Shown piece after piece: positions 35,565 through 64,000 of a DNA stretch of 64,000 nt. The translations under genes were made by a program, and so were the position numbers. Within the stretch, counting starts at the first letter, position 1. Every line of letters starts with the position of its first letter. The stretch comes from Mycobacterium sp. Root265 (GTDB lineage Bacteria; Actinomycetota; Actinomycetes; Mycobacteriales; Mycobacteriaceae): assembly GCF_001428895.1 (NCBI RefSeq), contig NZ_LMJA01000007.1, positions 1 through 64,000 on the forward strand, in the 5' to 3' direction. A model generated the notes under the pieces. The model was given only the letters and a program-made list of their open reading frames with translations, ran no database searches and was not told the origin of the DNA.

Positions 35565-36356
35565 TCAGGCCAGGTGCCCGCGGATGATCGCTGCGGTCTC
35601 AGCGGGCAAAGCCTGGGCCACCATGTGGTCGCAGTCCACCTCGGCCACCGTGAAACTGTCACCGAGCGCGTCGCGCAGGGTGCCGATCAGGGTGTCGGTC
35701 GCATACGGGGGAGTGGTGCGGGTGGCCAGCATCAGCGTGGTCGGTGTTCCGCTGCGCGGCAACGGGATCGGCCGGGTCAGCTCGCTCCAGTAGGACATCG
35801 CCGCCGGGACGCTGATCCGCCAGCCCACGCGCCCGTTGGGCAACTCGATCAGGTGCTCGTCCAGTTCACGGGTCAACTCCTCGGGGAACGTGGCGGCCAC
35901 CTCGGCCCACGACCCGGACAGCTTGTCGGCGGTGGCCTCCTCGCGGTCGGGATAATCGGGGGAGGACAGCATCGCGTCGGCGATCTCGGCCATCCAGGCG
36001 CCGTCCAGCGCGACCGCCGGATCCAGCAACACCAGCGAGGAAACCAGATCGGGCCGGGTCGCGGCGAGGCTGAGCGCCACCGCGCCGCCGAACGAATGCC
36101 CGGCCACCAGGACCGGCCCGCCGCCCTCGGCGTCCAGCAGGGCGGCCAGCGCCGCCACGTTGGCCTCCACCGTCCACGGCGCCGCCCAGGTGGACCGGCC
36201 GTGCCCGATCAGATCCGGTGCCAGCACCGAGAACTCGGGCAGATACTCATTGGACAGCGTTTCCCAGCGCCGGCCGTGCCCGGTGAGCCCGTGCACGCCC
36301 AGGATCTGGGCCGGCCGGGACGGTCCGTAGCGGTAGGTGTGCAGGCGATCGGTCAC
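35565..36356 (-). CDS. lipV: Alpha/beta-hydrolase, LipV type
   Basis: A 263-residue alpha/beta-hydrolase. The oxyanion HGLTGHG segment is near the N-terminus, the nucleophile elbow is GHSFGG, and the catalytic His is probably in VDCDHMVAQ close to the C-terminus. It matches the Rv3203 family, named LipV for weak esterase activity; the natural substrate is unknown. GTG at 36356 gives a complete first beta-strand. It is upstream of the alkyltransferase-like gene on the same strand and divergent from adnA across 94 bases. Confidence 0.87.
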   Translation of the reverse strand: MTDRLHTYRYGPSRPAQILGVHGLTGHGRRWETLSNEYLPEFSVLAPDLIGHGRSTWAAPWTVEANVAALAALLDAEGGGPVLVAGHSFGGAVALSLAATRPDLVSSLVLLDPAVALDGAWMAEIADAMLSSPDYPDREEATADKLSGSWAEVAATFPEELTRELDEHLIELPNGRVGWRISVPAAMSYWSELTRPIPLPRSGTPTTLMLATRTTPPYATDTLIGTLRDALGDSFTVAEVDCDHMVAQALPAETAAIIRGHLA

Positions 36357-52504: not shown

Positions 52505-52521
52505 TCGGATAGAATATCCAA
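52505..52521. promoter_or_regulatory. GntR operator copy 1
   Basis: TCGGATA-GAA-TATCCAA: seven-base arms around a three-base centre, one mismatch from perfect symmetry. It matches the copies at 54108 and 63736 in all but one arm base and the centre. Confidence 0.75.
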
Positions 52522-52676
52522 CGCCGATGCATCGAAGACGCCCCAATCGAACCTTCGGTGGACGCGCGAAATCGACAAGCAGTGAATCCTGCTCAAGCGG
52601 CGAATGGGCCTTAACGTGACCAAAGAAGGCCTGACGGCCCCATGACACCGCGCATATACCGGCCAGGACCACGAAT

Positions 52677-52693
52677 TCGAATAGAGTATCCAA
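52677..52693. promoter_or_regulatory. GntR operator copy 2, at the gntR start
   Basis: TCGAATA-GAG-TATCCAA, one base different from copy 1 in the arms. It ends 18 bases before the gntR ATG, so bound GntR would block its own transcription or translation start. Confidence 0.75.
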
Positions 52694-52711
52694 TACTTGA
52701 AAGGAGAGCTG

Positions 52712-53446
52712 ATGCCACCGCGAGCAACGAAGCGCAGCCCCCGTGTTGCGGCCGGCGCGAGCGCGAGTGCACGCTCGGAGTTTGTGCGCCCGAAGACGGC
52801 GAACCAGGCCGTCGCCGAGGCGATTCGCCGCGACATCAGCAGCGGTCGATTCCCGCCGGGCAGCTGGATCGTGCAGGAAAGCCTCGTGGAAATGTACGGG
52901 GTGTCGCGAATTCCCATCCGGGAGGCGTTGAAGACGCTGGAGGCCGAGGAGTACGTCACCTACGTACCGCACAGCGGCTATCGAGTCACCGAACTGGGTC
53001 TCGAAGAGCTCCGGGAGATTTTCCAGCTGCGTGCCACGCTGGAAGAGATGCTGATCCGCGATGCAATGCCCCATGTCACCGACGAGATCGTCGATCAGAT
53101 GCGGCTACGGATGGCGGAGATGGACGAAGGTGTTGCCAGCGGCGACCTCGTCGCAGTCGGCCTCGCGAACCGGCAGTTTCACTTCCTGACCTTCGAGAAG
53201 AGTCGGCTGGCCCGCACGAAACGTATTGTGACCCAGCTGTACAACACGGCTGATGCGTACCGGCCGCTGTACGCGCATCTGATGAATCTGCCGAAGGTCA
53301 ATACCGAGCACATCCTGCTGACGGACGCGATTGCCGACCGCGACGTGGAGAGGGTGATCGCCCTGAATTACGAGCATCGTTCGCACGCGATCGATAACCT
53401 GACCAAGGCGCTGGCCGAGGACCTGAAGGACACGGCCGCCCAGTAA
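52712..53446 (+). CDS. GntR/FCD-family regulator of the downstream catabolic cluster
   Basis: A 244-residue FadR-type GntR protein. The winged helix-turn-helix covers about 29-95 (AEAIRRDISSGRFPPGSWIVQESL, then YGVSRIPIREALKTLEAEEY). The all-helical FCD ligand domain spans about 100-230, with candidate metal-binding histidines in RQFHFLTF, TEHILLTDAI and YEHRSHAI. Many FCD regulators bind small carboxylates through such a site. The ATG at 52712 has AAGGAG six bases upstream. It lies next to the operator that recurs before the monooxygenase and amidohydrolase genes, so it is the likely repressor of the block. Confidence 0.9.
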   Translation: MPPRATKRSPRVAAGASASARSEFVRPKTANQAVAEAIRRDISSGRFPPGSWIVQESLVEMYGVSRIPIREALKTLEAEEYVTYVPHSGYRVTELGLEELREIFQLRATLEEMLIRDAMPHVTDEIVDQMRLRMAEMDEGVASGDLVAVGLANRQFHFLTFEKSRLARTKRIVTQLYNTADAYRPLYAHLMNLPKVNTEHILLTDAIADRDVERVIALNYEHRSHAIDNLTKALAEDLKDTAAQ

Positions 53447-53450
53447 GCGG

Positions 53451-54050
53451 TTACCGCGGCCCGCCCAGGGTTCGTCCGAGAGCGAGACCCAGCGCCACAC
53501 CGGCGAGCGCCGTGACAGCGAGCACCAGGCGTTCGTCGGCGTTGGGGGAGTAGCTCGCAGCCCGACGGTGCGGCGAGCTGTCGGCGGCAGGGCGGTGCGG
53601 GTCGTCGGGGCCGGCGATGGCGTCGTTGAGGCGATTGGCGAACTGCTTGAGGATTCGGTTGCTGACCTGAGCGATCACCCCGCTGCCGAACTGCGCGATC
53701 CGCCCACTGAGCTCCAGATCGGTGGTGACGGTGACCGCCGAACTGCCGCCACGCTCGTGGGCAACCATGGTGACCGTGGCCTCGGCCGAGCCATTGCCCT
53801 TGCCGTCGCGGGCGGTTCCCCGGACCACCATCCGATGCGTTCGGTCGTCGCGGTTCACGATCCGTGCCGTCCCGCCCAGCGTGAGGCCGACGGGTCCGAC
53901 CTTCACTGTGACGTTGGCCCGGTGCTCATCACCCTCGCTGCTCTCCAGTTCGGCGCCCGGAATGCACGCCGCCACCTGCGGAATGTCGGTGAGTACGGCC
54001 CACGCGATATCGATCGGTGCATCGACGACGAACTCGTTGACCAGCTGCAT
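53451..54050 (-). CDS. CoxG-like SRPBCC protein with C-terminal membrane tail
   Basis: A 199-residue CoxG-family protein. The N-terminal ~145 residues are an SRPBCC ligand-binding domain (FVVDAPIDIAWAVLTDIPQVAACIPGAEL at the start; TDLELSGRIAQFGSGVIAQVSNRILKQF helix near the end), a cavity that binds hydrophobic ligands. A linker leads to a C-terminal hydrophobic helix, LVLAVTALAGVALGLALGRTL. CoxG accompanies Cox-type CO dehydrogenase, and the M. smegmatis protein was shown to carry menaquinone to that enzyme. This one sits with a different molybdenum hydroxylase, hence an analogous role is inferred. It is divergent from the monooxygenase gene, sharing an operator. Confidence 0.82.
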   Translation of the reverse strand: MQLVNEFVVDAPIDIAWAVLTDIPQVAACIPGAELESSEGDEHRANVTVKVGPVGLTLGGTARIVNRDDRTHRMVVRGTARDGKGNGSAEATVTMVAHERGGSSAVTVTTDLELSGRIAQFGSGVIAQVSNRILKQFANRLNDAIAGPDDPHRPAADSSPHRRAASYSPNADERLVLAVTALAGVALGLALGRTLGGPR

Positions 54051-54107
54051 CGCGGTGCTCCCTGTGTGACTGCGCTGTTGAAGAACCCGGTGAGGTCCGC
54101 TTTACTA

Positions 54108-54124
54108 TTGGATATTCTATCCAA
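54108..54124. promoter_or_regulatory. GntR operator copy 3, perfect palindrome in the coxG/monooxygenase gap
   Basis: TTGGATA-TTC-TATCCAA is a perfect inverted repeat. It immediately follows TACTAT (54103-54108), a good -10 for the plus-strand monooxygenase gene, with TTGAAG (54078-54083) at -35. A repressor here would shut both divergent promoters. Confidence 0.8.
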
Positions 54125-54148
54125 GACGCACCGTAAAGGGAGTTACGC

Positions 54149-55147
54149 ATGTTGAGCAAGGGTGTTGGACTTTTTCCCACCGAGCCGGTCGGTCCGATGT
54201 GCGACTACGTCAAACTCTGCGAATCGCTGGGCTATGACAATGTGTGGTTCGGCGATTCGCAGAACATCTGGCGCGAGTCCTCAACCGTGATGGGCGCAGC
54301 GGCCGTCGGTACCGAAAAGATCGTCTTCGGCACCGGGGTGACCAATGCCGTGACGCGGCACCCGTCCGTGCTGGCGTCGACCTGGGCGACCTTGGCGGAG
54401 TTCACCAACGGCCGAGTGGCGCTGGGCATCGGCACCGGAGACTCTTCGCTTCGGACCATGGGCCTTCGCCCGCAGAAGCTTGCCGAGCTCGAACAGTCGA
54501 TCACCGACCTGCGTGCCTTGTTCCGTGGGGAATCGGTGGCAGAGTCGAGCAGTGGCGCCGATTTTCACCTCAACTACGTGACCGAACCGATGGACATCCC
54601 GATCTACATCGCGGCGTCGGCACCGAAGATCCTGCAGATGTCCGGCCGTATCGCCGATGGCGTCATCGTGCTGGTGGGAACGGCACCGCATTTCATCGAA
54701 GCGGCGCTGCAGACCATCGAGGCCGGCGCCAAGGAGAGCGGCCGCACACTCGACGACCTGCACATCGTGTTGTGGACACCCACAGCGATCGCCGAAGACC
54801 GCACCGAGGCCCGCGATCTGGTGCGCGCTCATGTATCCCGTGTCGCCATCCGTCCGTTACCGGCCAAGGTGGACCCGGCGCTGGAGAAAGCGATCGACCG
54901 CATCCGGGACAGCTACAACTACTACGAGCACATGAACACCGAAGCCGCGCACGCCGACCTCGTCCCCGACGAACTGGTCGATCTGTTCGCCCTGGCGGGG
55001 ACCCCCGATGAGTGTGCGCAACGGCTCAAGGAGATCGAATCCGTGGGTGTCAACCAAGTGTCGATCGTTCCTTTCGTGCGTCCCGGGCAGAGCAAGGAAG
55101 CAACCATCCGCACCTTCGCCGATATCGTGGGCGGCCTCGGGCAATGA
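54149..55147 (+). CDS. LLM-class (luciferase-like) flavin-dependent monooxygenase
   Basis: A 332-residue bacterial-luciferase-fold protein that would use reduced F420 or FMNH2. Diagnostic segments are LGYDNVWFGDSQNIWRES, VTRHPSVLASTWATLAEFTNGRVALGIGTGDS (from about residue 68), PIYIAASAPKILQMSGRIADGVIV and the C-terminal GTPDECAQRLKEIESVGVNQVSI. Family members oxidise or reduce a wide range of small molecules, and in mycobacteria many use F420. The ATG at 54149 has AAAGGGAG upstream. As first gene after the operator it may act early in the pathway. The cofactor cannot be decided from sequence. Confidence 0.87.
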   Translation: MLSKGVGLFPTEPVGPMCDYVKLCESLGYDNVWFGDSQNIWRESSTVMGAAAVGTEKIVFGTGVTNAVTRHPSVLASTWATLAEFTNGRVALGIGTGDSSLRTMGLRPQKLAELEQSITDLRALFRGESVAESSSGADFHLNYVTEPMDIPIYIAASAPKILQMSGRIADGVIVLVGTAPHFIEAALQTIEAGAKESGRTLDDLHIVLWTPTAIAEDRTEARDLVRAHVSRVAIRPLPAKVDPALEKAIDRIRDSYNYYEHMNTEAAHADLVPDELVDLFALAGTPDECAQRLKEIESVGVNQVSIVPFVRPGQSKEATIRTFADIVGGLGQ

Positions 55148-55413
55148 CGGACCGCCGAGGTGCGCCCGCTACGGCTGCCGCCGGCTTCCCGGCTCCGGGC
55201 AGCAGGGTCGCCGGGGCGCCACCGGCACTGAAGCGCGTGCTGACACCGGCCGACGGGGTACTTCACGCTCCGCCCGTTGCTGAAGTGGCGACCGCCGCGG
55301 TGCCCGCGGCCGATCTGCGACGACCGTCCTTGTCGTCGTTCACCGCGGCCGCCGCCATGGCGGGCATCGCGGTCGGCCTCGAGCTGGCGCGACTGTCGAG
55401 AGGCGCTCGGTGA
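55144..55413 (+). CDS. Small membrane-tail protein, unrecognised
   Basis: An 89-residue Ala/Pro-rich protein that I do not recognise. Only its last ~25 residues are hydrophobic (SSFTAAAAMAGIAVGLELARL), forming a C-terminal helix that closely resembles the tail of the CoxG-like protein encoded opposite (TALAGVALGLALGRTL): both have A-x-x-A-G-[VI]-A-x-G-L-x-L-x-R spacing. The first 60 residues look unstructured. The ATG overlaps the monooxygenase stop (ATGA), implying coupled translation. It might be a membrane anchor or assembly partner, or a degenerate gene end; there is no direct functional evidence. Confidence 0.6.
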   Translation: MTDRRGAPATAAAGFPAPGSRVAGAPPALKRVLTPADGVLHAPPVAEVATAAVPAADLRRPSLSSFTAAAAMAGIAVGLELARLSRGAR

Positions 55414-55444
55414 GGTGTTATTTACGTCAAGTTAACGCGATCGG

Positions 55445-55482
55445 TTGACGCACCTCACACCCCCTTTTATAGTTGGATCCAA
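55445..55482 (+). promoter_or_regulatory. Promoter of the ABC importer with compressed GntR site
   Basis: TTGACG (55445-55450), 17-base spacer, TATAGT (55468-55473) form a near-ideal housekeeping promoter. Immediately downstream is TTGGATCCAA (55473-55482), the two operator half-sites TTGGAT/ATCCAA placed directly against each other rather than with the 7-base offset of the other copies. Position at the start site suits repression, but the altered spacing makes GntR binding uncertain. Confidence 0.65.
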
Positions 55483-55510
55483 TATGCAGTTACCAGATGG
55501 AGGTGCTTTG

Positions 55511-56497
55511 ATGTTGCGTCTGACCAAGTGCGTGACTGCGTCACTCACAGTCTTCGCCGTACTGGCCACCGGTGCGTGCGCCGACGAGGGGGCGGCGCCC
55601 CAGAGTGGATCCGGCAGCAACACGCTGAGCATCTCGGCCACCGGCGTCGACAGCCTGCCGTTCATGGCCATCCTGCAGGCCGGCATCAACAAGAAGTGGT
55701 TCGAGGAAGAGGGCCTGGCCGTCGACCTGTTCTCGGGCGGCGGCGGTGGTAACACGCTGCGAGTCGTCACCAGTGGCGACGCCGACGTCGCCATCGCGGG
55801 CAACAGCTCGGTCCTGCTCGCCGCCCAGCAGCCCAATTCCAATCTCAAGGTGATCGCGCCCTGGTTCCAGGTCAACGACTTCTCCTGGATCAGCCCGCCC
55901 GGACGAAGCCTGGAGGGCGCGACCCTGGGTTTCAGTTCCGCCGGATCCTCGACCGAACTGATCGTCAAGGGCCTGCAACGTGAACTCCCCGGAGTGCAGG
56001 CACAGGCAGTCGGCCCGATGGGCGACAACTGGACGGCGGCGAAGGCCGACCAGATCACCGCAGGCTGGGCCATGCAACCCTTCATCGCCGACAAGCAGGC
56101 CACCGACAATGCCGAGGTGCTGGTGAATTCCCGGGAGTTGCTGGGTGACCTGCCCGCCGATCTGGTGGCAGTCAACACCGCATACGCCGAAGCCAACCCG
56201 GAAAACTTGCGCAAGTTCTTCAAGGTCGCCGACCGGCTGAACCAGTGGGTGGTGGAAAGCCCGGATGAAGCCGCGACCGAACTGGCGCCGCTGGTCGGTG
56301 TCGGTCCAGAAGTGATGAAGGCAGCCTTCCGTGACAATCCCGACCTCGCCAAAGGCTACTCGCTCAAGGTGGACACCGAGGGCCTGAAGAACCTGTCGGA
56401 CCTGATGGTGGAGGCCGGGCAGATCTCCGAACCCGTCAACTGGGCGGAGACATTGGATCAGCAGTACCTGCCCGACGACGCCCAGTCCACGTTCTGA
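55511..56497 (+). CDS. ABC transporter substrate-binding lipoprotein (SsuA/NMT1-like)
   Basis: A 328-residue periplasmic-binding protein of the SsuA/TauA/NMT1 type. Signal sequence with hydrophobic core VTASLTVFAVLATGA precedes a lipobox-like cysteine (C23 in ATGACADEG); the box is not canonical but position and context fit. The binding domain includes VDSLPFMAILQAGINKKWFEEEGL, SGDADVAIAGNSSVLLAAQQ and the SPPGRSLEGATLGFSSAGSSTELI hinge. Members bind small sulfonates, nitrate, pyrimidine or aromatic-carboxylate compounds. ATG 55511 with GGAGG seven bases before is chosen over earlier ATG 55484. Inferred cargo is the substrate of the pathway. Confidence 0.87.
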   Translation: MLRLTKCVTASLTVFAVLATGACADEGAAPQSGSGSNTLSISATGVDSLPFMAILQAGINKKWFEEEGLAVDLFSGGGGGNTLRVVTSGDADVAIAGNSSVLLAAQQPNSNLKVIAPWFQVNDFSWISPPGRSLEGATLGFSSAGSSTELIVKGLQRELPGVQAQAVGPMGDNWTAAKADQITAGWAMQPFIADKQATDNAEVLVNSRELLGDLPADLVAVNTAYAEANPENLRKFFKVADRLNQWVVESPDEAATELAPLVGVGPEVMKAAFRDNPDLAKGYSLKVDTEGLKNLSDLMVEAGQISEPVNWAETLDQQYLPDDAQSTF

Positions 56498-56561
56498 GCC
56501 CGCAGCGACCGCGTGAACCGAACCCGTTGATGTCCGACAGCCTTGAAAGAGAGCGAAATTC

Positions 56562-57371
56562 GTGAGCAATCAGGGAATTCAAATCGAGAACGTGTCGGTC
56601 GTGTTCGACACGGCAGCCGGGCAGGTGACGGCGGTCAAGCAGATCGATCAGCACATTCCGCCCACCAGCTTCGTGTCGATCGTCGGCCCCAGCGGCTGTG
56701 GCAAATCGACTCTGCTCGCCGTGATCTCCGGATTGCAGAAGGCCACCAGTGGAACGGTGAGTGTGGCGGGGCGACCGGTGAGCGGGCCGGACCCCAAGAT
56801 CGGCGTGGTGTTCCAGGAGGACTCAACGTTGCCCTGGCGCACCGTCGAGGAGAACGTGGCGTTCGCGATGGAGATGATCGGGACCGAGAAGGCGGCCAGA
56901 CGCCGACGGGCTCAGGAGGCGATCGAGCTGGTCGGTCTGCGGGGGTTCGAGAAGTCCTATCCCTCACAACTTTCCGGTGGCATGCGCCAGCGAGTGGCAT
57001 TGGCGCGCACGCTCGCGGTCCAGCCCGAGGTGGTGCTGATGGACGAGCCGTTCGCAGCACTTGACCAGCAGACGCGCTTGTTCCTCGGTGCCGAGGTCCG
57101 CCAGATCTGGGCCCGCACGCATCAGACCATCATGTTCGTCACGCACGACATCTCGGAGGCCATTCTGCTGTCCCAGCAGGTGTGGGTGATGTCCTACCGG
57201 CCCGGAACCATCATCGATGTCGTTGACATCGACCTGCCCGACGAGCGTGACGCCAGTGTTGTCTCGACACCCCGGTTCAACGAGTTGCACAACCGGATCT
57301 GGAGTTCCCTGCAGGCGGAGTCGATGCGCGGGTTCCAGCAGCAGGACACCAAGGAGAAGGCGTCGAAGTGA
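56562..57371 (+). CDS. ABC importer ATPase (SsuB/TauB-like)
   Basis: A 269-residue nucleotide-binding subunit. Walker [10 protein letters not shown] is at 42-50, the Q-loop in FQEDSTLPW near 85-91, the signature LSGGMRQR at 137-144, Walker B VVLMDEP (157-163) and the switch histidine in VTHDISEA. The [12 protein letters not shown] segment is characteristic of nitrate/sulfonate/taurine importer ATPases. GTG at 56562 has AAAGAGAG before it. It is 64 bases after the binding-protein gene and overlaps the first permease by GTGA. Confidence 0.94.
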
Positions 57372-58219
57372 CCACCTCCTATGTGGCGGCCGACGATCTG
57401 CCGTCGGAAACTCTGCACGGGTCGCAGCGGGAGCCGGAGAACAGCACACCCGCGTGGCGTCCGGGCAAGCTCACGGTGAGTGTGTTGTCGACGGTGGGTC
57501 TGTTCGCGGCATTCATCCTCTTCTGTGAGATCGGTGCGCGCGCCGGATGGTGGAGCGCGGGCATCCTGCCGGCCCCGTCGGTCATCGTTGCCGAACTGGG
57601 CGTCCTCCTCACCGAGCCGCAATTCTGGAGTGACGCGGGCCGCACCGGATTCGAGGTGGCACTGGCCATTGTGTTCGGCGGGCTGCTGGGATTCGCTGCC
57701 GGCCTGGTCTTCTGGAAGATTCCGCTGGTCGGCCGGATCTTCGAACCGTATCTGGTGTCGTTCTACGCCGTCCCGTTGGTTTTGTTCTACCCGGTCATGA
57801 TCGTCCTGGTAGGCATCAACGCCATGTCGGTGATCATCCTGGCGACCATCATGGCGGCCATCCCGATGGCGCTCAACACCGCGGTCGGTCTCAACACCAT
57901 GCCCCCCGTCTACATGAAGCTGGCTCGATCGTTGAAAGCCTCACCGCGACAGACGCTGTTCGCCATCGCCATCCCAGCGGCCGGACCTTTCATCGTCGCC
58001 GGTCTGCGACTCGCCGTGGTGTACGCCCTGATCGGGACCATCGCCATGGAATTCACCACGGCCCAGGCAGGATTGGGATACCGCATCCGCTACCTCTACG
58101 AAATCTTCGACAACGAACTGATGTTCGCCCACATCGTGATGGTTCTCGTGCTCTCCGGCATTCTCACCATCCTGCTGGCCGTGGTAGAGCGGGCACTGCT
58201 GCGCGGAAGGAATCTGTGA
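57368..58219 (+). CDS. ABC importer permease 1 (SsuC-like)
   Basis: A 283-residue BPD-type inner-membrane permease with about six helices (first at about 37-57). The EAA loop for ATPase coupling reads [21 protein letters not shown] (EAA-like motif near residues 186-210). A ~35-residue hydrophilic N-terminus precedes the first helix. It overlaps the ATPase gene stop by GTGA and its own end overlaps the second permease start. Together with permease 2 it probably forms a heteromeric membrane pair rather than the usual SsuC homodimer. Confidence 0.9.
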
Positions 58220-59013
58220 TGACCACCATCGCCGGCCGGCACGCGGCCACCGAGCCGCCGGCGCGGCCCGACAGGTTCCAGGCCCGTGCGATCGTGACCA
58301 GCCAGGCTTTCGGGGCCGTGATGCTGGGATTCGTGATACTTGCCGTCTGGCAGGTGATGTCGGGTGTCACCTTCGTCATCCCTTCGCCTGCGCACACGGT
58401 GGCCGTGCTGTTCTCCAATCTCGCCGATCCTGCCTACCTTTTCGATCTGCGGGTCACGGCCCAGTCGGTGCTGATGGCATTCGTGATCGGCACCGCGGTG
58501 GGCGGCGGCATCGGCCTGCTCCTCGGACTGTCGCCACTTCTGCGAACGGTCCTCGAACCGTCGATCATCATCCTCAACGGTATCCCCAAGATCGTGCTCT
58601 ACCCGGTGCTGCTGCCCATCTTCAGCCTGTCGGGGTCCAAGGTGGTCATGGGCGTGTTGTTCGCCCTGTTCCCGGTTCTGATCAATGTCTCGACCGGCGT
58701 CCAGGAGATCCCGCGGGTGTACTGGAAGCTCGCGAAGTCGGTACGGGCGAACTCCTGGCAGACGCTGGTGCACATCATCTTTCCTGCCATTCGCCGTCCG
58801 CTGCTGACCGGCATCCGGCTCGCGGTGAGCCTGTCGGTCGTGGGCGTCGTGCTCTCGGAGTTCTTCGCCACTCGTCGCGGGCTCGGTCGAGTGGTGCTGC
58901 AGTCTTACAGCCACGGTGAATACCCGGCGATGGTCGCCACCATCATGCTGCTCATCACGATCTCCTTCGGTATCTCGATCGCGCTGTGGCAGTGGGAAAA
59001 GCGACTCCATTGA
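58216..59013 (+). CDS. ABC importer permease 2 (SsuC-like)
   Basis: A 265-residue second BPD permease, similar in plan to the first but clearly diverged. Its EAA loop is VRANSWQTLVHIIFPAIRRPLL and it ends ITISFGISIALWQWEKRLH. About six membrane segments begin near residue 32. GTG 58216 or ATG 58219, adjacent codons, could start it, with GGAAGGA upstream. Having two different permease genes suggests a heterodimeric channel. The stop overlaps the molybdenum-subunit start (TTGA), tying transport to catabolism. Confidence 0.9.
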   Translation: MMTTIAGRHAATEPPARPDRFQARAIVTSQAFGAVMLGFVILAVWQVMSGVTFVIPSPAHTVAVLFSNLADPAYLFDLRVTAQSVLMAFVIGTAVGGGIGLLLGLSPLLRTVLEPSIIILNGIPKIVLYPVLLPIFSLSGSKVVMGVLFALFPVLINVSTGVQEIPRVYWKLAKSVRANSWQTLVHIIFPAIRRPLLTGIRLAVSLSVVGVVLSEFFATRRGLGRVVLQSYSHGEYPAMVATIMLLITISFGISIALWQWEKRLH

Positions 59014-61316
59014 GTTCGGAAACGGGCGGCGGACGCTACATCGGGACGTCGGTCCGTCGGCGTGAGGACGACCGCATGCTCAGCGGGCGGGGCCGATTTC
59101 TGGCCGACCATGCCGCCGGTGCCCACCACATCGTGTTCGTCCGGTCGAGTCAGGCACACGCACGGATCACCCGAATCGACACATCGCGGGCGGCGGAGAT
59201 GCCCGGGGTGCTGGGGGTGTTCCTCGCCCACGATCTCGGTCTGGCGGACACACCGATCACCGGATTGACCACTCCCGATCCGGGTTTCACTGCGGCGACG
59301 TCGTGTGTGATCGCTGAGCAGCGCCTACCGATTCTCGCCACCGACCGGGTGCACTATGTCGGTCACCCGATCGCGGTGGTGGTGGCCGATGACCGTTACC
59401 GGGCCGAGGACGCTGCCGAGAACGTCGACATCGAATACGAACCGCTTCCCGTCCTCACCGATGCGACGGCCGCACTCGAACCAGGGGCGCCGGTGCTCTT
59501 CGATCACCTGCCCGACAACGAGGCCGCCCGGATGCACTACGCGTTCGGTGATCCCGACGGTGCGTTCAGCCGTGCCCACCGCATCGTCGAGGGCAGCTAC
59601 CAGATGAGCCGGCACGGCGCGGTGCCGTTGGAATGTCGGGGCGTGGCAGCCAGTTTCGATGCCAGATTGCAGCGCGTGGACATGCTCACCTCCACCCAGG
59701 TTCCGCACATGGTGCGTAACGCGATCTGCGCAGCCACCGGCTGGACCCGGGAGGACATCAAGGTCTCGGTACCCGACGTGGGCGGTGGCTTCGGGACGAA
59801 GGCCAACGTCTACGGCGAGGAGATCATCGTCCCGGTGGTGTCCCGATACACCGGCTACCACGTTATCTGGGTGGAGGACCGGCAGGAGCATCTGGTCGCC
59901 AGTGCCCAAGGCCGCGATCAGCTGCACAAGACCAGACTGGCGGTGGACCGCGACGGCCGAATACTCGCGTGGCAAGACGATTTCGTCGTCGATATCGGTG
60001 CCGGCAGCCTGTGGGTCGCCGGAATCGTCGCCAACACCGCCATCCACCTGCTCGGGTCCTACCGGGTTCCGGCGGCGCGCATCAGTGGCCGGGCAGCATT
60101 GACCAACAAAACGCTTGTCGCCCAGTACCGGGGAGCGGGTCGGCCCGAGGCGACGTTTGCCCTGGAACGCAGCATGGACGCGGCGGCGAGGGAACTCGGG
60201 CTCTCGACGGTGGAGATACGCCGCCGAAATCTGCTGACCGCCGACGACCTACCCTATCCGCGGCCGATCCCTTATCGCGACGGCGTACCGATCCTCTACG
60301 ACGGCAAGGACTACACGGCTTGCCTGGAGTCCGTGCTGACCTCCCTTCCCCAGTCGGAGGCCGACGAACTGGCGGACACCTATCCGGATCACCGGATCGG
60401 TTACGGCTTGGCGTGTTACATGGAAGCCACCGGCCGCGGTCCGCACGAGACCGCCCGCGTGAGGGTGTTGCCGAACGGCCAGTTCGAAGCTACCGCCGGC
60501 GCGGCCTCGGCCGGGCAGGGGCACGAAACCACATTTGCGCAGATTGCTGCGGACGCCCTGGAGGTGCCGCTGGAGCGGGTGCGGTATCTGGCTTCCGACA
60601 CCGAACGCCTGCCCGACGGTGTGGGCACCTTCGCGAGTCGGTCGGCGATCCTGGCCGGATCGGCGATCCATCAGGGCGCCCGCGAACTCATCGACCTGGC
60701 TCGGGGGCGGGCGGCCGGTCTGCTCGGCTCGGCCGACGTGGTGTACCGCGACGGACGTTTCGAGGCCGACGGCAAGGCCGTCGGCTGGGGCGAGCTGGCC
60801 GCTGCGGTCCGGGACGGCGCGCCACTCGATATCAGCACGGTGTTCCGGGTGAACACCGTCACCTGGACGATGGGGGTGCACGCGGTGATCCTCGGGGTCC
60901 ATCGGCATACCGGGATCGTGACGGTGCTCCGGTATGCGGTATCGCACGAAGGTGGGCGGGAGATCAATCCGCAAATCGTCGAGGGACAGGTGATAGGCGG
61001 TGTTGCGCAGGGCATCGGCGGCGCGTTGTTCGAGAAGTGGGCGTATTCGCCCGGCGGCGAACCGCAGTCGACCACCTTCGCTGCATACCACCTACCCCTG
61101 AGTACCGATGTTCCTCGGGTGCGGGTGACGCATCTGCATGTCGACACGCCGTGCAACCCGATCGGCGTGCGTGGAGCAGGTGAAAGCGGCGCAATCGCGG
61201 TATACGCCGCTGTCGCGGGTGCGATCGATGACGCGGTGGGTGGAAACATCCACATCGACCGCACGCCGATCAACACCGGTGACATCTGCCGAGCCCTGGA
61301 CGCGGTGGCGTCATGA
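59010..61316 (+). CDS. Molybdenum-binding large subunit of a xanthine-dehydrogenase-type hydroxylase
   Basis: A 768-residue molybdopterin subunit of the xanthine oxidase family. Pterin-contact segments DVGGGFGTK (256-264) and QYRGAGRPEA (372-381), the QGHETTFAQIAAD region, and the catalytic Glu in GVRGAGESGAI (E725) are all present. The active-site loop is QYRGAGRPEA rather than the AYRCSFR of true CO dehydrogenase, so CO is not the substrate. Hydroxylation of an N-heteroaromatic or aldehyde carbon by water is expected. The start is TTG 59010 overlapping the permease stop; GTG 58986 in frame is an alternative. Confidence 0.9.
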   Translation: MSSETGGGRYIGTSVRRREDDRMLSGRGRFLADHAAGAHHIVFVRSSQAHARITRIDTSRAAEMPGVLGVFLAHDLGLADTPITGLTTPDPGFTAATSCVIAEQRLPILATDRVHYVGHPIAVVVADDRYRAEDAAENVDIEYEPLPVLTDATAALEPGAPVLFDHLPDNEAARMHYAFGDPDGAFSRAHRIVEGSYQMSRHGAVPLECRGVAASFDARLQRVDMLTSTQVPHMVRNAICAATGWTREDIKVSVPDVGGGFGTKANVYGEEIIVPVVSRYTGYHVIWVEDRQEHLVASAQGRDQLHKTRLAVDRDGRILAWQDDFVVDIGAGSLWVAGIVANTAIHLLGSYRVPAARISGRAALTNKTLVAQYRGAGRPEATFALERSMDAAARELGLSTVEIRRRNLLTADDLPYPRPIPYRDGVPILYDGKDYTACLESVLTSLPQSEADELADTYPDHRIGYGLACYMEATGRGPHETARVRVLPNGQFEATAGAASAGQGHETTFAQIAADALEVPLERVRYLASDTERLPDGVGTFASRSAILAGSAIHQGARELIDLARGRAAGLLGSADVVYRDGRFEADGKAVGWGELAAAVRDGAPLDISTVFRVNTVTWTMGVHAVILGVHRHTGIVTVLRYAVSHEGGREINPQIVEGQVIGGVAQGIGGALFEKWAYSPGGEPQSTTFAAYHLPLSTDVPRVRVTHLHVDTPCNPIGVRGAGESGAIAVYAAVAGAIDDAVGGNIHIDRTPINTGDICRALDAVAS

Positions 61317-62197
61317 AGCCGGCCGACTTTGATTACGTCCGGCCGCATACGGTTTCGGACGCCCTTGACCTGCTCGCCGAGAACCCAGATGCGAAGATCC
61401 TCGCCGGCGGCCAGTCGCTGCTGACGCTGATGAACCTGCGGTTGGCCCGTCCGACGATGCTGATCGACATCGGCGCACTGGAAGAACTGCGCAGGGTCTT
61501 CGATGACACCGACGATCTGGTGCTGGGGTCCCTGATCACCCATCGCACCGTCGAGACGGATCCTCTCATCGGTGCCCGCGCGCCGTTACTGGCCGATGCC
61601 GCGCGCTATATCGGTCATATCGGCATCCGGAACCGGGGAACCATCGGTGGCTCGGTGGCACATGCAGACCCCGCTGCCGAGATGCCACTGGCCACTCTCG
61701 TTCTCGACGCCACATTCCACATCGAGTCGGCCATGTCCGGCCGCCGCGAGTTGTCCGCCGAGGACATGTTCGTGTCGTTCTACACCAATGCCCTGGAGCA
61801 CCACGAGATCATCACCTGGATCTCGATTCCGAGTGCCCGACCCAATGAGGGCTGGGGATTCGTCGAATATTCCCATCAGCATGGCGATTACGGCATGGCC
61901 GGTGCGGGGTGTGCGCTCACGTTGAGCCCGGATGGCCGGGTCTCGGCACTGCGCGCCGGCGTTCTCGCCGCGGCCGACCGGCCGCTGCTTTTCGTGGGGG
62001 ACGAGGCCGTGGGAGCCGTGCCCTCGGAGAAGCTGTGGGCCGACCTCGCCCACGAATGGGCGGCGCGCACCGAACCTGCGGCTGATGATTCCGACTATGC
62101 GCGCCGGCTGTGCGCAACGGCGCTACGCGAAGCGCTGACCATGGCAGCGCATCGAACCATCGACCAATCAGAGGAGGAGGGCAGCTATGGCGGCTGA
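61313..62197 (+). CDS. FAD-binding medium subunit of the molybdenum hydroxylase
   Basis: A 294-residue CoxM/CutM-like flavoprotein. The two FAD pyrophosphate motifs are AGGQSLLTLMNLRLARP (from about residue 31) and the IRNRGTIGGSVAHADPAAE stretch near 103-121. It passes electrons from the Fe-S subunit to an acceptor; in CO dehydrogenase this is the site where quinone delivered by CoxG is reduced, so it is the likely contact for the CoxG-like protein here. The ATG overlaps the large-subunit stop (ATGA) and its end overlaps the small-subunit start by 11 bases. Confidence 0.92.
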   Translation: MKPADFDYVRPHTVSDALDLLAENPDAKILAGGQSLLTLMNLRLARPTMLIDIGALEELRRVFDDTDDLVLGSLITHRTVETDPLIGARAPLLADAARYIGHIGIRNRGTIGGSVAHADPAAEMPLATLVLDATFHIESAMSGRRELSAEDMFVSFYTNALEHHEIITWISIPSARPNEGWGFVEYSHQHGDYGMAGAGCALTLSPDGRVSALRAGVLAAADRPLLFVGDEAVGAVPSEKLWADLAHEWAARTEPAADDSDYARRLCATALREALTMAAHRTIDQSEEEGSYGG

Positions 62198-62711
62198 TTC
62201 TCGGGACTCGAATGCGGTTCCGGTGTCGATCTCGGTCAACGGTCGCAATTTCCGGCGGACTGTCCCGGCCCGACTGACACTTGCCGACTTCCTGCGGGAC
62301 CACCTCGGACTGACCGGAACTCATCTCGGCTGCGAGCACGGGGTGTGCGGCGCCTGCACGGTGCTCGTCGATGGCCACAGTGCCCGATCGTGCCTGATGC
62401 TGGCGGTCCAGGCCGACGGAGCTCGGCTTGACACGGTCGAAGGGCTCGGCCGATACGAGCAGTGTGACCGGCTACGCGAGGCGTTCTCCCGGAACGGGGG
62501 ATTGCAGTGCGGTTTCTGCACGCCGGGCTTCCTGGTCACCGCGCTGGAATTGCTCCGCGATCCGGACACCGAGAAGCCGCTCTGCGAGCAGTCGGTACGG
62601 GAAGCTCTGTCCGGCAACATATGTCGATGCACTGGCTACCAGGGGATTGTGCAGGCCGTCCTCGACGCGGCGGAACCTCCGGATCCAGGTCCTGAGGTCG
62701 AGCCCGACTAG
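62187..62711 (+). CDS. [2Fe-2S] small subunit of the molybdenum hydroxylase
   Basis: A 174-residue protein with two [2Fe-2S] clusters. Plant-type ferredoxin cluster: C49, C54, C57, C69 (CEHGVCGAC then RSC). Alpha-helical cluster: C108, C111, C146, C148 (CGFC and CRC). All eight ligands are intact, so the three-subunit enzyme should be competent. A strong ribosome site (GAGGAGGGC) precedes ATG 62187. The gene order large-medium-small differs from the medium-small-large layout common in cox operons, which again separates this from CO dehydrogenase. Confidence 0.94.
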   Translation: MAADSRDSNAVPVSISVNGRNFRRTVPARLTLADFLRDHLGLTGTHLGCEHGVCGACTVLVDGHSARSCLMLAVQADGARLDTVEGLGRYEQCDRLREAFSRNGGLQCGFCTPGFLVTALELLRDPDTEKPLCEQSVREALSGNICRCTGYQGIVQAVLDAAEPPDPGPEVEPD

Positions 62712-63796
62712 TGCGCCGCTCACCGGTGTGCCCGTGTGTGGCCGAGCTGGTGCGCCCGGTCGGGCAGGCGCAGTGGGCGATGGCGACATGTCTGGCAGTG
62801 ACGCTCGGCGCGATTCTCACGATCACCGCGGCCGTCGGCCACGCGGAGCTGGGCTCGGCGGTGGGACTGGGTTTCGTGCTGACCGCGGTTCCTTCGCTGC
62901 CGCAGGAGTTGGCCGCGGGACTGAGATTGATCGCTTTACGCACGGCCACGGTGATCGTCGGTGCGGGGTTCGTGGTGGTGACCGTCGAGGTTCCCGGTGC
63001 GCACGCGGTGGCCGTCGTGGTGGCGGCAGTGTGTGGTTCGCTGATCGAAAAGATAGGCGCGACAGCGGGTTTGGTGGTCATCTTGACCGCCATCGATGTC
63101 GGGGCATCGGGCGCCACGCACGTCCCGTGGTGGAATGTGTGGCCTTACGCCACAGGTTCGCTGACGGTGTTGATGGCCTGGCTGGCATGGTGGTGCGTTG
63201 CGCGTGTCAGAGGCTCGGGACCAGAGCCCGCCGTGTCTCCCTCAGTCGGCACGACGGTCGTACCGTACCGGCATGCCGCGCGGGTGGCGGTAGCCGTCAC
63301 GGCGGCCGTCCTGGTTGCCCAGGCGCTACCCGATGATCTGGTGGGCGGGCACTGGCTGATCACCAGTGTGCTGCTGACCATTCAGCCGCAGCGGGACCAG
63401 ACGCGCACCCGGATCGCGCAGCGGCTCGGCGGAAACGCGGTCGGAGCGTTGATCGCGGCCGCCGTGCTCGGGGTGCAACCACCTGCGCCGGTGGTCATTT
63501 CCGTGGCCGTCGCGTTGTTCCTCCTGGCCATGGCGCTGCGGCCGGTCAACTACACCTGGTGGGCGGTCACGGGGCCGCCGGTCCTGCTGATCGTCAGCGA
63601 GTATCCCGCGCTGTTCCCCTGGTATGAGGGCGGTGTGCGGTTGGCGATGAACCTCGCCGGTGCGGTGGTTGTCGTCCTGGTCGTGTTCGGCCCGACTCTG
63701 CTGATGCGCCGGGACCGTGCACGTGCATCCAATAATCGGATAGTGTATCCAAAATGGAGAGAAGGAGCCGCGGGTGACGACCCTGTTGATCGATGA
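62711..63796 (+). CDS. FUSC-family membrane protein
   Basis: A 361-residue membrane protein with repeated hydrophobic stretches: a cluster of helices at about 22-165 and a second at about 190-345 separated by a loop. The IQPQRDQTRTRIAQRLGGNAVGALIAA segment is the FUSC signature of fusaric-acid-resistance/aromatic-acid efflux proteins. A role in exporting or tolerating a toxic aromatic acid intermediate would make sense here. GTG at 62711 shares a base with the stop of the Fe-S subunit gene. The C-terminal 23 codons run through the next operator and past the amidohydrolase GTG at 63774. Confidence 0.8.
   Translation: MRRSPVCPCVAELVRPVGQAQWAMATCLAVTLGAILTITAAVGHAELGSAVGLGFVLTAVPSLPQELAAGLRLIALRTATVIVGAGFVVVTVEVPGAHAVAVVVAAVCGSLIEKIGATAGLVVILTAIDVGASGATHVPWWNVWPYATGSLTVLMAWLAWWCVARVRGSGPEPAVSPSVGTTVVPYRHAARVAVAVTAAVLVAQALPDDLVGGHWLITSVLLTIQPQRDQTRTRIAQRLGGNAVGALIAAAVLGVQPPAPVVISVAVALFLLAMALRPVNYTWWAVTGPPVLLIVSEYPALFPWYEGGVRLAMNLAGAVVVVLVVFGPTLLMRRDRARASNNRIVYPKWREGAAGDDPVDR
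63736..63752. promoter_or_regulatory. GntR operator copy 4, before the amidohydrolase gene
   Basis: TCGGATA-GTG-TATCCAA (63736-63752), with an extra half-site ATCCAA at 63727-63732. TAGTGT inside it could be a -10. It lies inside the end of the FUSC coding sequence, 21 bases before the amidohydrolase start, giving that gene its own controlled promoter. Confidence 0.75.
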
Positions 63797-64000
63797 CATC
63801 GGCCTGCTGGTGCACGGTGACAGCTCGAAGTCTCCGATCCGAGACACGACTGTCGTGGTCGAGGACGGTGTCATCACCGGTATCGGAAGCCGCCATCCCG
63901 CACCCGATGCCGTGCTCTCCGCGGGCGGGATGACGGTGATGCCCGGCCTTGTCGACGGCCACGTCCACCCCACCTTCGGTGAGTGGACACCGGCGCAGAA
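63774..64000 (+). CDS. Amidohydrolase-superfamily enzyme, N-terminal part (cut by window edge)
   Basis: The first ~75 residues of an amidohydrolase, starting at GTG 63774 after GAAGGAG. The initial beta strands (LLIDDIGLLVHG, TTVVVEDGVITGIGS) lead to the first metal motif HxH in PGLVDGHVHPTFGEW. The HVHPTFGEWTPAQ form resembles enamidase and related ring-opening enzymes of N-heterocycle breakdown, but too little is visible to name the substrate. It overlaps the FUSC end by 23 bases and has its own GntR operator. The rest of the gene, and probably more of the pathway, lies beyond the window. Confidence 0.8.
   Translation, partial: MTTLLIDDIGLLVHGDSSKSPIRDTTVVVEDGVITGIGSRHPAPDAVLSAGGMTVMPGLVDGHVHPTFGEWTPAQ

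Follow-up and report, generated by a model that had tools for sequence, protein, structure and literature searches.

A GntR-controlled gene cluster of Mycobacterium sp. Root265 as a probable reductive route for picolinate via 2-oxoadipate

The stretch of DNA analysed here, in the following called the window, comprises positions 1-64000 of contig C7 (NZ_LMJA01000007.1) of the 6.67-Mb genome of Mycobacterium sp. Root265. Towards its end it carries a gene cluster coding for a GntR-family regulator, a CoxG-like protein, an oxidoreductase of the luciferase-like monooxygenase (LLM) class, an ATP-binding cassette (ABC) importer, a molybdenum hydroxylase with three subunits, a FUSC-type membrane protein and an enamidase-like amidohydrolase (Table 1). 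All genes named in an initial annotation of the window were recovered at their places by reading frames and Pfam, and the overlapping stops and starts pointed out there are present in eight of the 12 adjacent gene pairs, which overlap by 1 to 23 bases (starts as in Table 1). The gene for a small protein of 89 amino acids (aa) was detected in many relatives by tblastn. The cluster continues past the window end at position 64000: the contig sequence, which the initial annotation had recommended to read, completes the amidohydrolase gene and adds genes for a fused E1 dehydrogenase, a fused flavin adenine dinucleotide (FAD) oxidase, HglS and RidA as well as a fifth predicted operator, i.e. the cluster spans positions 52505-72414, about 20 kb. 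The genes for RidA, HglS and the FAD oxidase constitute one operon on the strand opposite to that of the E1 gene.

Table 1. Genes and predicted regulatory sites of the cluster (positions in contig C7).
Feature	Position	Strand	Evidence or location
Operator 1, predicted	52505-52521		upstream of gntR; 1 mismatch to TTGGATANNNTATCCAA
Operator 2, predicted	52677-52693		18 bases ahead of gntR start codon; 2 mismatches
GntR-family regulator, FCD subfamily	52712-53446	+	Pfam GntR + FCD
CoxG-like protein, C-terminal hydrophobic segment	53451-54050	-	Pfam COXG, 63.7 bits
Operator 3, predicted	54108-54124		between divergent coxG and LLM genes; 0 mismatches
LLM-class oxidoreductase	54149-55147	+	Pfam Luciferase-like monooxygenase
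89-aa protein, hydrophobic C-terminal segment	55144-55413	+	no Pfam match
Weak operator-like site	55473-55489		ahead of binding-protein gene; 3 mismatches
Binding lipoprotein, NMT1/SsuA type	55508-56497	+	Pfam NMT1
ABC importer ATPase	56562-57371	+	Pfam ABC_tran
ABC importer permease 1	57368-58219	+	Pfam BPD_transp_1
ABC importer permease 2	58216-59013	+	Pfam BPD_transp_1
Molybdenum hydroxylase large subunit	59010-61316	+	PDB matches 7dqx, 1t3q
Molybdenum hydroxylase FAD subunit	61313-62197	+	Pfam FAD_binding_5
Molybdenum hydroxylase 2Fe-2S subunit	62187-62711	+	Pfam Fer2, Fer2_2
FUSC-type membrane protein	62711-63796	+	Pfam FUSC_2, 55.3 bits
Operator 4, predicted	63736-63752		inside FUSC gene 3' end, 21 bases before amidohydrolase start codon; 1 mismatch
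Enamidase-like amidohydrolase	63774-65009 (truncated at 64000 by window end)	+	PDB 2vun
Glutaryl-CoA dehydrogenase (GCDH) remnant	65037-65162	+	tblastn
Fused E1 dehydrogenase	65188-67362	+	Pfam/NCBIfam
GlcD/GlcF-type fused FAD oxidase	67387-70251	-	Pfam/NCBIfam
HglS (2-oxoadipate dioxygenase/decarboxylase)	70344-71807	-	NCBIfam, above curated cut-off
RidA-type deaminase	71893-72390	-	Pfam
Operator 5, predicted	72398-72414		ahead of ridA, past window; 1 mismatch

A feature missing from the initial annotation is the palindrome TTGGATA-N3-TATCCAA, which is repeated along the cluster and predicted to be its operator. Searched as TTGGATANNNTATCCAA with up to three mismatches, it matches the window at six places, as compared to a mean of 0.17 (largest value 2) in shuffled sequence, and one of the six, at position 36250, is located outside the cluster. 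Genome-wide, with up to two mismatches, five of the six places lie inside the cluster and the sixth on contig C1, and the reversed control pattern has no match in the genome. The loci of 38 relatives contain 114 sites at a limit of three mismatches, some of them overlapping, versus 3.7 in shuffled sequence (mean over three shuffles per locus). The palindrome recurs there at the coxG/LLM promoter and ahead of the genes for the amidohydrolase and the binding protein, the sites of the latter having two to three mismatches in many relatives. We infer that the GntR protein acts through these sites, with the substrate or an intermediate of the pathway as its likely effector.

The lower part of the pathway is indicated by the genes past position 64000. 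HglS reaches 719.6 bits against NCBIfam family NF050083 (cut-off 600) and 286 bits against PDB 6w1g. Its residues H77, R81, H234 and E308 fall in conserved alignment blocks and the substrate arginine is kept, the numbering of the His and Glu residues of the triad being presumptive. HglS from Pseudomonas putida contains an HHE metal triad and the substrate residue Arg74, and the characterised enzyme used 2-oxoadipate as sole substrate among the 2-oxoacids tested, as stated in excerpts of the report (PMC7286885). The window genome also encodes a second HglS paralogue (C10:98920-100113), which is 60% identical to the cluster copy.

In most relatives from the genus, HglS is missing from the locus and a GCDH gene is placed between the genes for the amidohydrolase and E1; the GCDH copy of locus L083 matches PDB 3sf6 with 685 bits and 3swo with 583 bits. 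Among 37 loci, seven contain HglS and 26 GCDH, always together with E1, none contains both, two have E1 only and two neither module nor E1. From the 39 unique loci L082 and L104 were left out of this count, as their sequence extends less than 2 kb downstream, and L095, which ends 99 bases past the amidohydrolase gene, was retained because its HglS gene lies upstream. The chance of zero overlap between HglS and GCDH is 3e-5 if the loci are treated as independent, which they are not. At E <= 1e-60 HglS is found in ten of 32 cluster genomes, in six of these within the cluster, and it was not found at this threshold in 18 of the 21 GCDH-type genomes searched whole. The window genome itself combines HglS, an intact E1 and, at the expected place, a decayed GCDH remnant of 42 codons (tblastn E 1e-5 with an 18-kb subject, 18/42 identical), as if the HglS module had displaced the GCDH module. 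Given the specificity of HglS and the presence of E1/GCDH where HglS is missing, two unrelated modules appear to meet at 2-oxoadipate, which both would consume. Downstream of E1, L058 and L064 carry a gene for a family III CoA-transferase and, by eye, a thioesterase-like gene, whose products possibly handle glutarate/glutaryl-CoA.

The upper part of the cluster points to a nitrogen heterocycle. The best PDB matches of the large hydroxylase subunit are 6-hydroxypseudooxynicotine dehydrogenase (7dqx) and quinoline 2-oxidoreductase (1t3q), both of which presumably hydroxylate a ring next to its nitrogen, and we propose that the subunit may act as picolinate 6-hydroxylase. An aerobic CO dehydrogenase, considered in view of CoxG and the Cox-like subunits, was ruled out by active-site loop and scores, i.e. 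the large subunit reads QYRGAGR at position 372 instead of the Cys-containing AYxCSFR, which we take to be the active-site loop of aerobic CO dehydrogenase, and the CO dehydrogenase models score 602.6 and 368.3 bits versus NCBIfam cut-offs of 950 and 991. For a 3-hydroxypyridine dehydrogenase, anchoring by a CoxG-like protein has been proposed (PMC11962113, in excerpt), and by analogy the CoxG-like protein encoded here is probably the membrane anchor of the molybdenum hydroxylase. By eye, CoxG and the 89-aa protein share a similar hydrophobic C-terminal segment, which suggests two membrane tethers within one pathway.

Only one PDB entry, the enamidase 2vun, matches the amidohydrolase strongly (272 bits over residues 4-385; next match 24 bits). 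In reductive nicotinate degradation, enamidase is the enzyme that opens the 6-oxo ring. The metal site of enamidase, which we take to be formed by His67, His69, two further His and an Asp, is kept in the alignment as H63, H65, H193, H221 and D278. We therefore propose, on grounds of homology, that the amidohydrolase would hydrolyse a six-membered cyclic enamide.

The core offers a single candidate for a reductase, the LLM protein. In the initial annotation it was called a flavin monooxygenase, but NCBIfam scores and structures fit an F420H2-dependent reductase better. F420 families score 192 and 186 bits and the best flavin mononucleotide (FMN) family 62 among the matches listed, a comparison that covers the best 25 of 30 families and contains more F420 than FMN models. 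The top PDB structures are F420-dependent reductases, the best being the F420-dependent methylene-tetrahydromethanopterin (H4MPT) reductase Mer. Mer itself was rejected as the identity of the LLM protein, which reaches 192.3 bits (cut-off 276) and has a Gly at chain residue 6 of 1z69; Glu6 is the catalytic residue of Mer (PMC11094777, in excerpt). In three of the 39 loci a gene for F420-glucose-6-phosphate dehydrogenase, above the family cut-off, adjoins the amidohydrolase gene, and each of these three genomes holds at least one further such gene above the cut-off elsewhere. CofD, detected in all 32 cluster genomes, discriminates little, since six of 14 control genomes have it as well (three above cut-off).

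The balance of atoms allows a choice between reduction and oxygenation. 6-Hydroxypicolinate + 2H + 2 H2O - NH3 gives C6H8O5, i.e. 2-oxoadipate, and thus one two-electron reduction and no oxygenase is needed before 2-oxoadipate. An FMN-dependent monooxygenase, in keeping with the flavin monooxygenase of the initial annotation, within an oxidative pathway would agree with the Pfam label of the LLM protein and with the occurrence of FMN enzymes in the LLM superfamily (PMC6279831, in excerpt), but it is unlikely, since an oxygenase step fails to balance to 2-oxoadipate, the best curated matches and structures among those listed are F420-dependent, an F420-reducing enzyme is encoded next to the amidohydrolase in three relatives, and no flavin reductase partner is present among the 17 gene products of the cluster as analysed by Pfam. 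Hence, we propose, as far as can be read from sequence, that the LLM protein may be an F420H2-dependent pyridone ring reductase.

Based on these findings we consider it probable that the 20-kb regulon encodes a reductive catabolic route for picolinate (pyridine-2-carboxylate) via 2-oxoadipate. In this route the NMT1/SsuA-type ABC importer would take up picolinate, and the FUSC-type protein, a possible exporter of picolinate-like acids, may release excess. The CoxG-tethered molybdenum hydroxylase would hydroxylate C6 of picolinate, giving 6-hydroxypicolinate (6-oxo-1,6-dihydropicolinate), to whose ring the LLM protein would transfer two electrons from F420H2, yielding the cyclic enamide 1,4,5,6-tetrahydro-6-oxopicolinate. 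The amidohydrolase would then open the ring to 2-aminohex-2-enedioate/2-iminoadipate, and RidA would accelerate the hydrolysis of this product to 2-oxoadipate and ammonia. This order of steps is suggested by the chemistry, as an enamidase-type step requires a cyclic enamide and RidA acts on an enamine or imine. Finally, HglS would convert 2-oxoadipate to D-2-hydroxyglutarate, which the FAD oxidase may oxidise to 2-oxoglutarate, while in most relatives from the genus E1, together with resident E2/E3, would turn 2-oxoadipate into glutaryl-CoA, the substrate of GCDH. The GntR protein is predicted to control the whole set through the TTGGATA-N3-TATCCAA operators. RidA matches Pfam YjgF_endoribonc and Ribonuc_L-PSP, has no NCBIfam match, and its R141 aligns to an arginine that we take to be the catalytic residue of Rid deaminases.

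The earlier suggestion of a GntR-controlled import and degradation of an N-heteroaromatic acid is thereby supported. The substrates then considered (hydroxypyridine, nicotinate-like, pyrimidine-like) can be narrowed to a pyridine-2-carboxylate because the genes past position 64000 and their replacements converge on 2-oxoadipate; among the carboxypyridines considered, picolinate fits this linear C6 end product.

2-Oxoadipate would also be reached if a cyclic imine derived from lysine, i.e. piperideine carboxylate or 6-oxopipecolate, was degraded. HglS has been described from bacterial D-lysine catabolism (PMC7286885, in excerpt), and a molybdenum enzyme could turn a cyclic imine into a lactam. 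This is quite unlikely, given that Pfam assigns none of the 17 gene products to the aminotransferases, amine oxidases or pipecolate enzymes, that the best PDB matches of the large subunit hydroxylate heteroaromatic rings and that the importer is of the NMT1/SsuA and not of the amino-acid type.

Eubacterium barkeri-type reductive nicotinate degradation uses an enamidase and proceeds from 6-hydroxynicotinate via tetrahydro-6-oxonicotinate to 2-formylglutarate. The cluster might encode this route, with an amidohydrolase homologous to the nicotinate-pathway enamidase and with the GCDH of the relatives serving a glutarate branch. We regard this as very improbable: branched 2-formylglutarate is not a 2-oxoacid, so that HglS and E1 would have no role, and the 17 gene products, as analysed by Pfam, do not include the partners that would be expected from Bacillota locus L109, in which the reading frames resemble a nicotinate set by eye. 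A substituted picolinate as true substrate, e.g. fusaric acid, which is 5-butylpicolinic acid, or a halogenated picolinate, would account for the FUSC-type gene of the Mycobacterium clusters (that of genome G077 excepted) and is equally improbable, as the loci of Sciscionella, Sphaerisporangium, Nonomuraea and Georgenia carry no FUSC gene. Moreover, the HglS studied took 2-oxoadipate only (PMC7286885, in excerpt), so that a chain with a substituent should not pass the final step.

The reductive picolinate route can further be judged from the distribution of its genes. The genus was sampled with 248 genomes, that of the window among them. Amidohydrolase matches are present in 29, of which 27 have strong ones and two only matches of 37-38% identity. 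These 27 genomes are also the ones with LLM matches (E <= 1e-120), and RidA (E <= 1e-40) is found in 26 of them, the 27th being G141. Related loci with 77-85% amidohydrolase identity belong to Mycolicibacterium/Mycobacterium species. Carriers include M. vanbaalenii BC8_1 (L096) and M. vaccae NBRC 14118, whose locus L093 covers the end with the FUSC, amidohydrolase, GCDH and E1 genes, the remainder lying off its contig. Among 296 genomes drawn from the whole class, a strong match is confined to the window genome, and five others have matches of 38-39% identity. The gene-neighbourhood search across actinobacteria proposed in the initial annotation revealed similar clusters in four other genera and a partial one in Pseudonocardia, on a short contig. 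The Sphaerisporangium and Nonomuraea loci contain importer, hydroxylase, LLM, coxG, gntR, amidohydrolase, HglS and FAD oxidase genes, the Georgenia locus those for importer, hydroxylase, LLM, CoxG, amidohydrolase, F420-glucose-6-phosphate dehydrogenase and HglS, and the Sciscionella loci the upper part and the amidohydrolase gene only.

Several observations weigh against the picolinate route. The LLM protein exceeds no curated NCBIfam cut-off, and the three molybdenum hydroxylase subunits remain below every cut-off, with models of CO dehydrogenase and glyceraldehyde dehydrogenase as top scores. In the amidohydrolase the position of Glu164, which we take to be the bridging metal ligand of the solved enamidase, is occupied by Lys162 (KFIFYDW) in 40 of 40 near aligned sequences, a set that includes the window's own twice, and Lys is also found there in six of seven distant sequences. 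The FAD oxidase scores 444 bits versus the cut-off of 1350 for YdiJ, a D-2-hydroxyglutarate dehydrogenase, and in the PDB it is closest to D-lactate dehydrogenase; the best PDB matches of E1 are pyruvate and branched-chain dehydrogenases. As sequence matches do not assign the substrates of these two enzymes, the ones given above are derived from context. Outside the genus RidA is part of the cluster in two of six genomes (Sphaerisporangium, Pseudonocardia), the other four having RidA paralogues of 34-41% identity elsewhere only, and in L055 (genome G141) the cluster copy of ridA is disrupted, lying in two fragments with one internal stop (C6:177478-177917). Being cluster-linked in two of these six genomes, RidA would be helpful and not indispensable, and its patchy occurrence leaves our estimate for the picolinate route unchanged because the imine could hydrolyse unaided.

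Further points of this kind concern the loci. Two Sciscionella and two Mycobacterium loci lack both HglS and GCDH in their vicinity, and L108 lacks LLM, binding protein and ATPase genes between coxG and the first permease gene, reflecting a deletion or an assembly collapse. The palindrome was not found with up to three mismatches in the distant loci L102 and L106, and L105 has a single site, away from the expected promoters; the GntR proteins of L102 and L105 are 38-39% identical and that of L106 was not found within its stretch. The co-occurrence described above is not independent of gene order, as the co-occurring genes are mostly linked. Additionally, Arthrobacter, Rhodococcus and Streptomyces, the Gram-positive picolinate degraders named in excerpts of PMC10142695, are not among the named strong cluster matches.

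The initial annotation had known of no described mycobacterial pathway with this combination of genes. Among the matches listed from open-licence literature we likewise found none, nor a description of the cluster, of picolinate together with F420 or of a conversion of picolinate to 2-oxoadipate; the combination is, however, not confined to this genome. In the excerpts of PMC10142695 the pic pathway of proteobacteria is the only picolinate route with known genes that was found. As in the pathway proposed here, its substrate in Alcaligenes faecalis JQ135 is picolinate and its first intermediate 6-hydroxypicolinate, but it is oxidative, employing the monooxygenase PicB and the decarboxylase PicC, and leads via 2,5-dihydroxypyridine to fumarate (PMC10142695). 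The oxidative pic route was rejected for our cluster, as no genes of PicB or PicC type or for 2,5-dihydroxypyridine are present among the 17 gene products by Pfam, Pic sequences not having been searched directly.

With the E. barkeri nicotinate route the proposed pathway would share the molybdenum-dependent hydroxylation beside the ring nitrogen, a single ring reduction and enamide hydrolysis by a homologous amidohydrolase. It would differ in the carboxylate at C2 instead of C3, in 2-oxoadipate as product after deamination, in RidA and HglS/E1-GCDH below, in F420H2 as proposed reductant, in its occurrence in actinobacteria and in the Lys that replaces the bridging Glu of the amidohydrolase. 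The conversion of 2-oxoadipate via D-2-hydroxyglutarate to 2-oxoglutarate corresponds to the lower part of D-lysine catabolism in P. putida, but here it would be fed by a pyridine ring and belong to the same regulon as the ring-opening genes. F420H2 transfers hydride to an aromatic ring in picrate degradation by Rhodococcus/Nocardioides, whereas the acceptor proposed here is a pyridone carboxylate that bears no nitro group, and the catabolic route would be a natural one.

Taken together, we lean towards the broader view that actinobacteria possess a complete pathway for the reductive degradation of picolinate, with F420H2 serving to dearomatise 6-hydroxypicolinate, that its lower half has been swapped at least once between glutaryl-CoA and HglS modules and that some lineages have added an F420-reducing dehydrogenase of their own. 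If so, this would be a second picolinate route, unrelated to pic after the first step, F420 would gain a role in natural aromatic catabolism, a pyridine carboxylate would become an intermediate of the lysine pathway (2-oxoadipate), and roughly a dozen genes, carried by 27 of the 248 genus genomes sampled, would receive a function. It also makes a clean prediction, i.e. carriers of the cluster should grow on picolinate. The swap of HglS and GCDH with its decayed remnant provides a readable case of pathway remodelling at a shared intermediate.

A few minor observations concern amidohydrolase genes in other settings. In L074 (genome G087) the gene is split into two overlapping matches, due to a frameshift or an assembly error. 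A plasmid search returned 25 records, all with less than 60% identity, and the gene settings differ in the four that were examined. A separate branch of amidohydrolases, 36-39% identical, comprises L075-L081, NC_011961.1 (L118) and NZ_CP122441.1 (L119). Its genes adjoin one annotated as "amino acid synthesis family protein" in L118 and L119, with a similar small frame recognised by eye in L075, L076, L078, L080 and L081, and molybdenum hydroxylase genes are located nearby in L077, L078, L079, L118 and L119. This branch appears to belong to another pathway.

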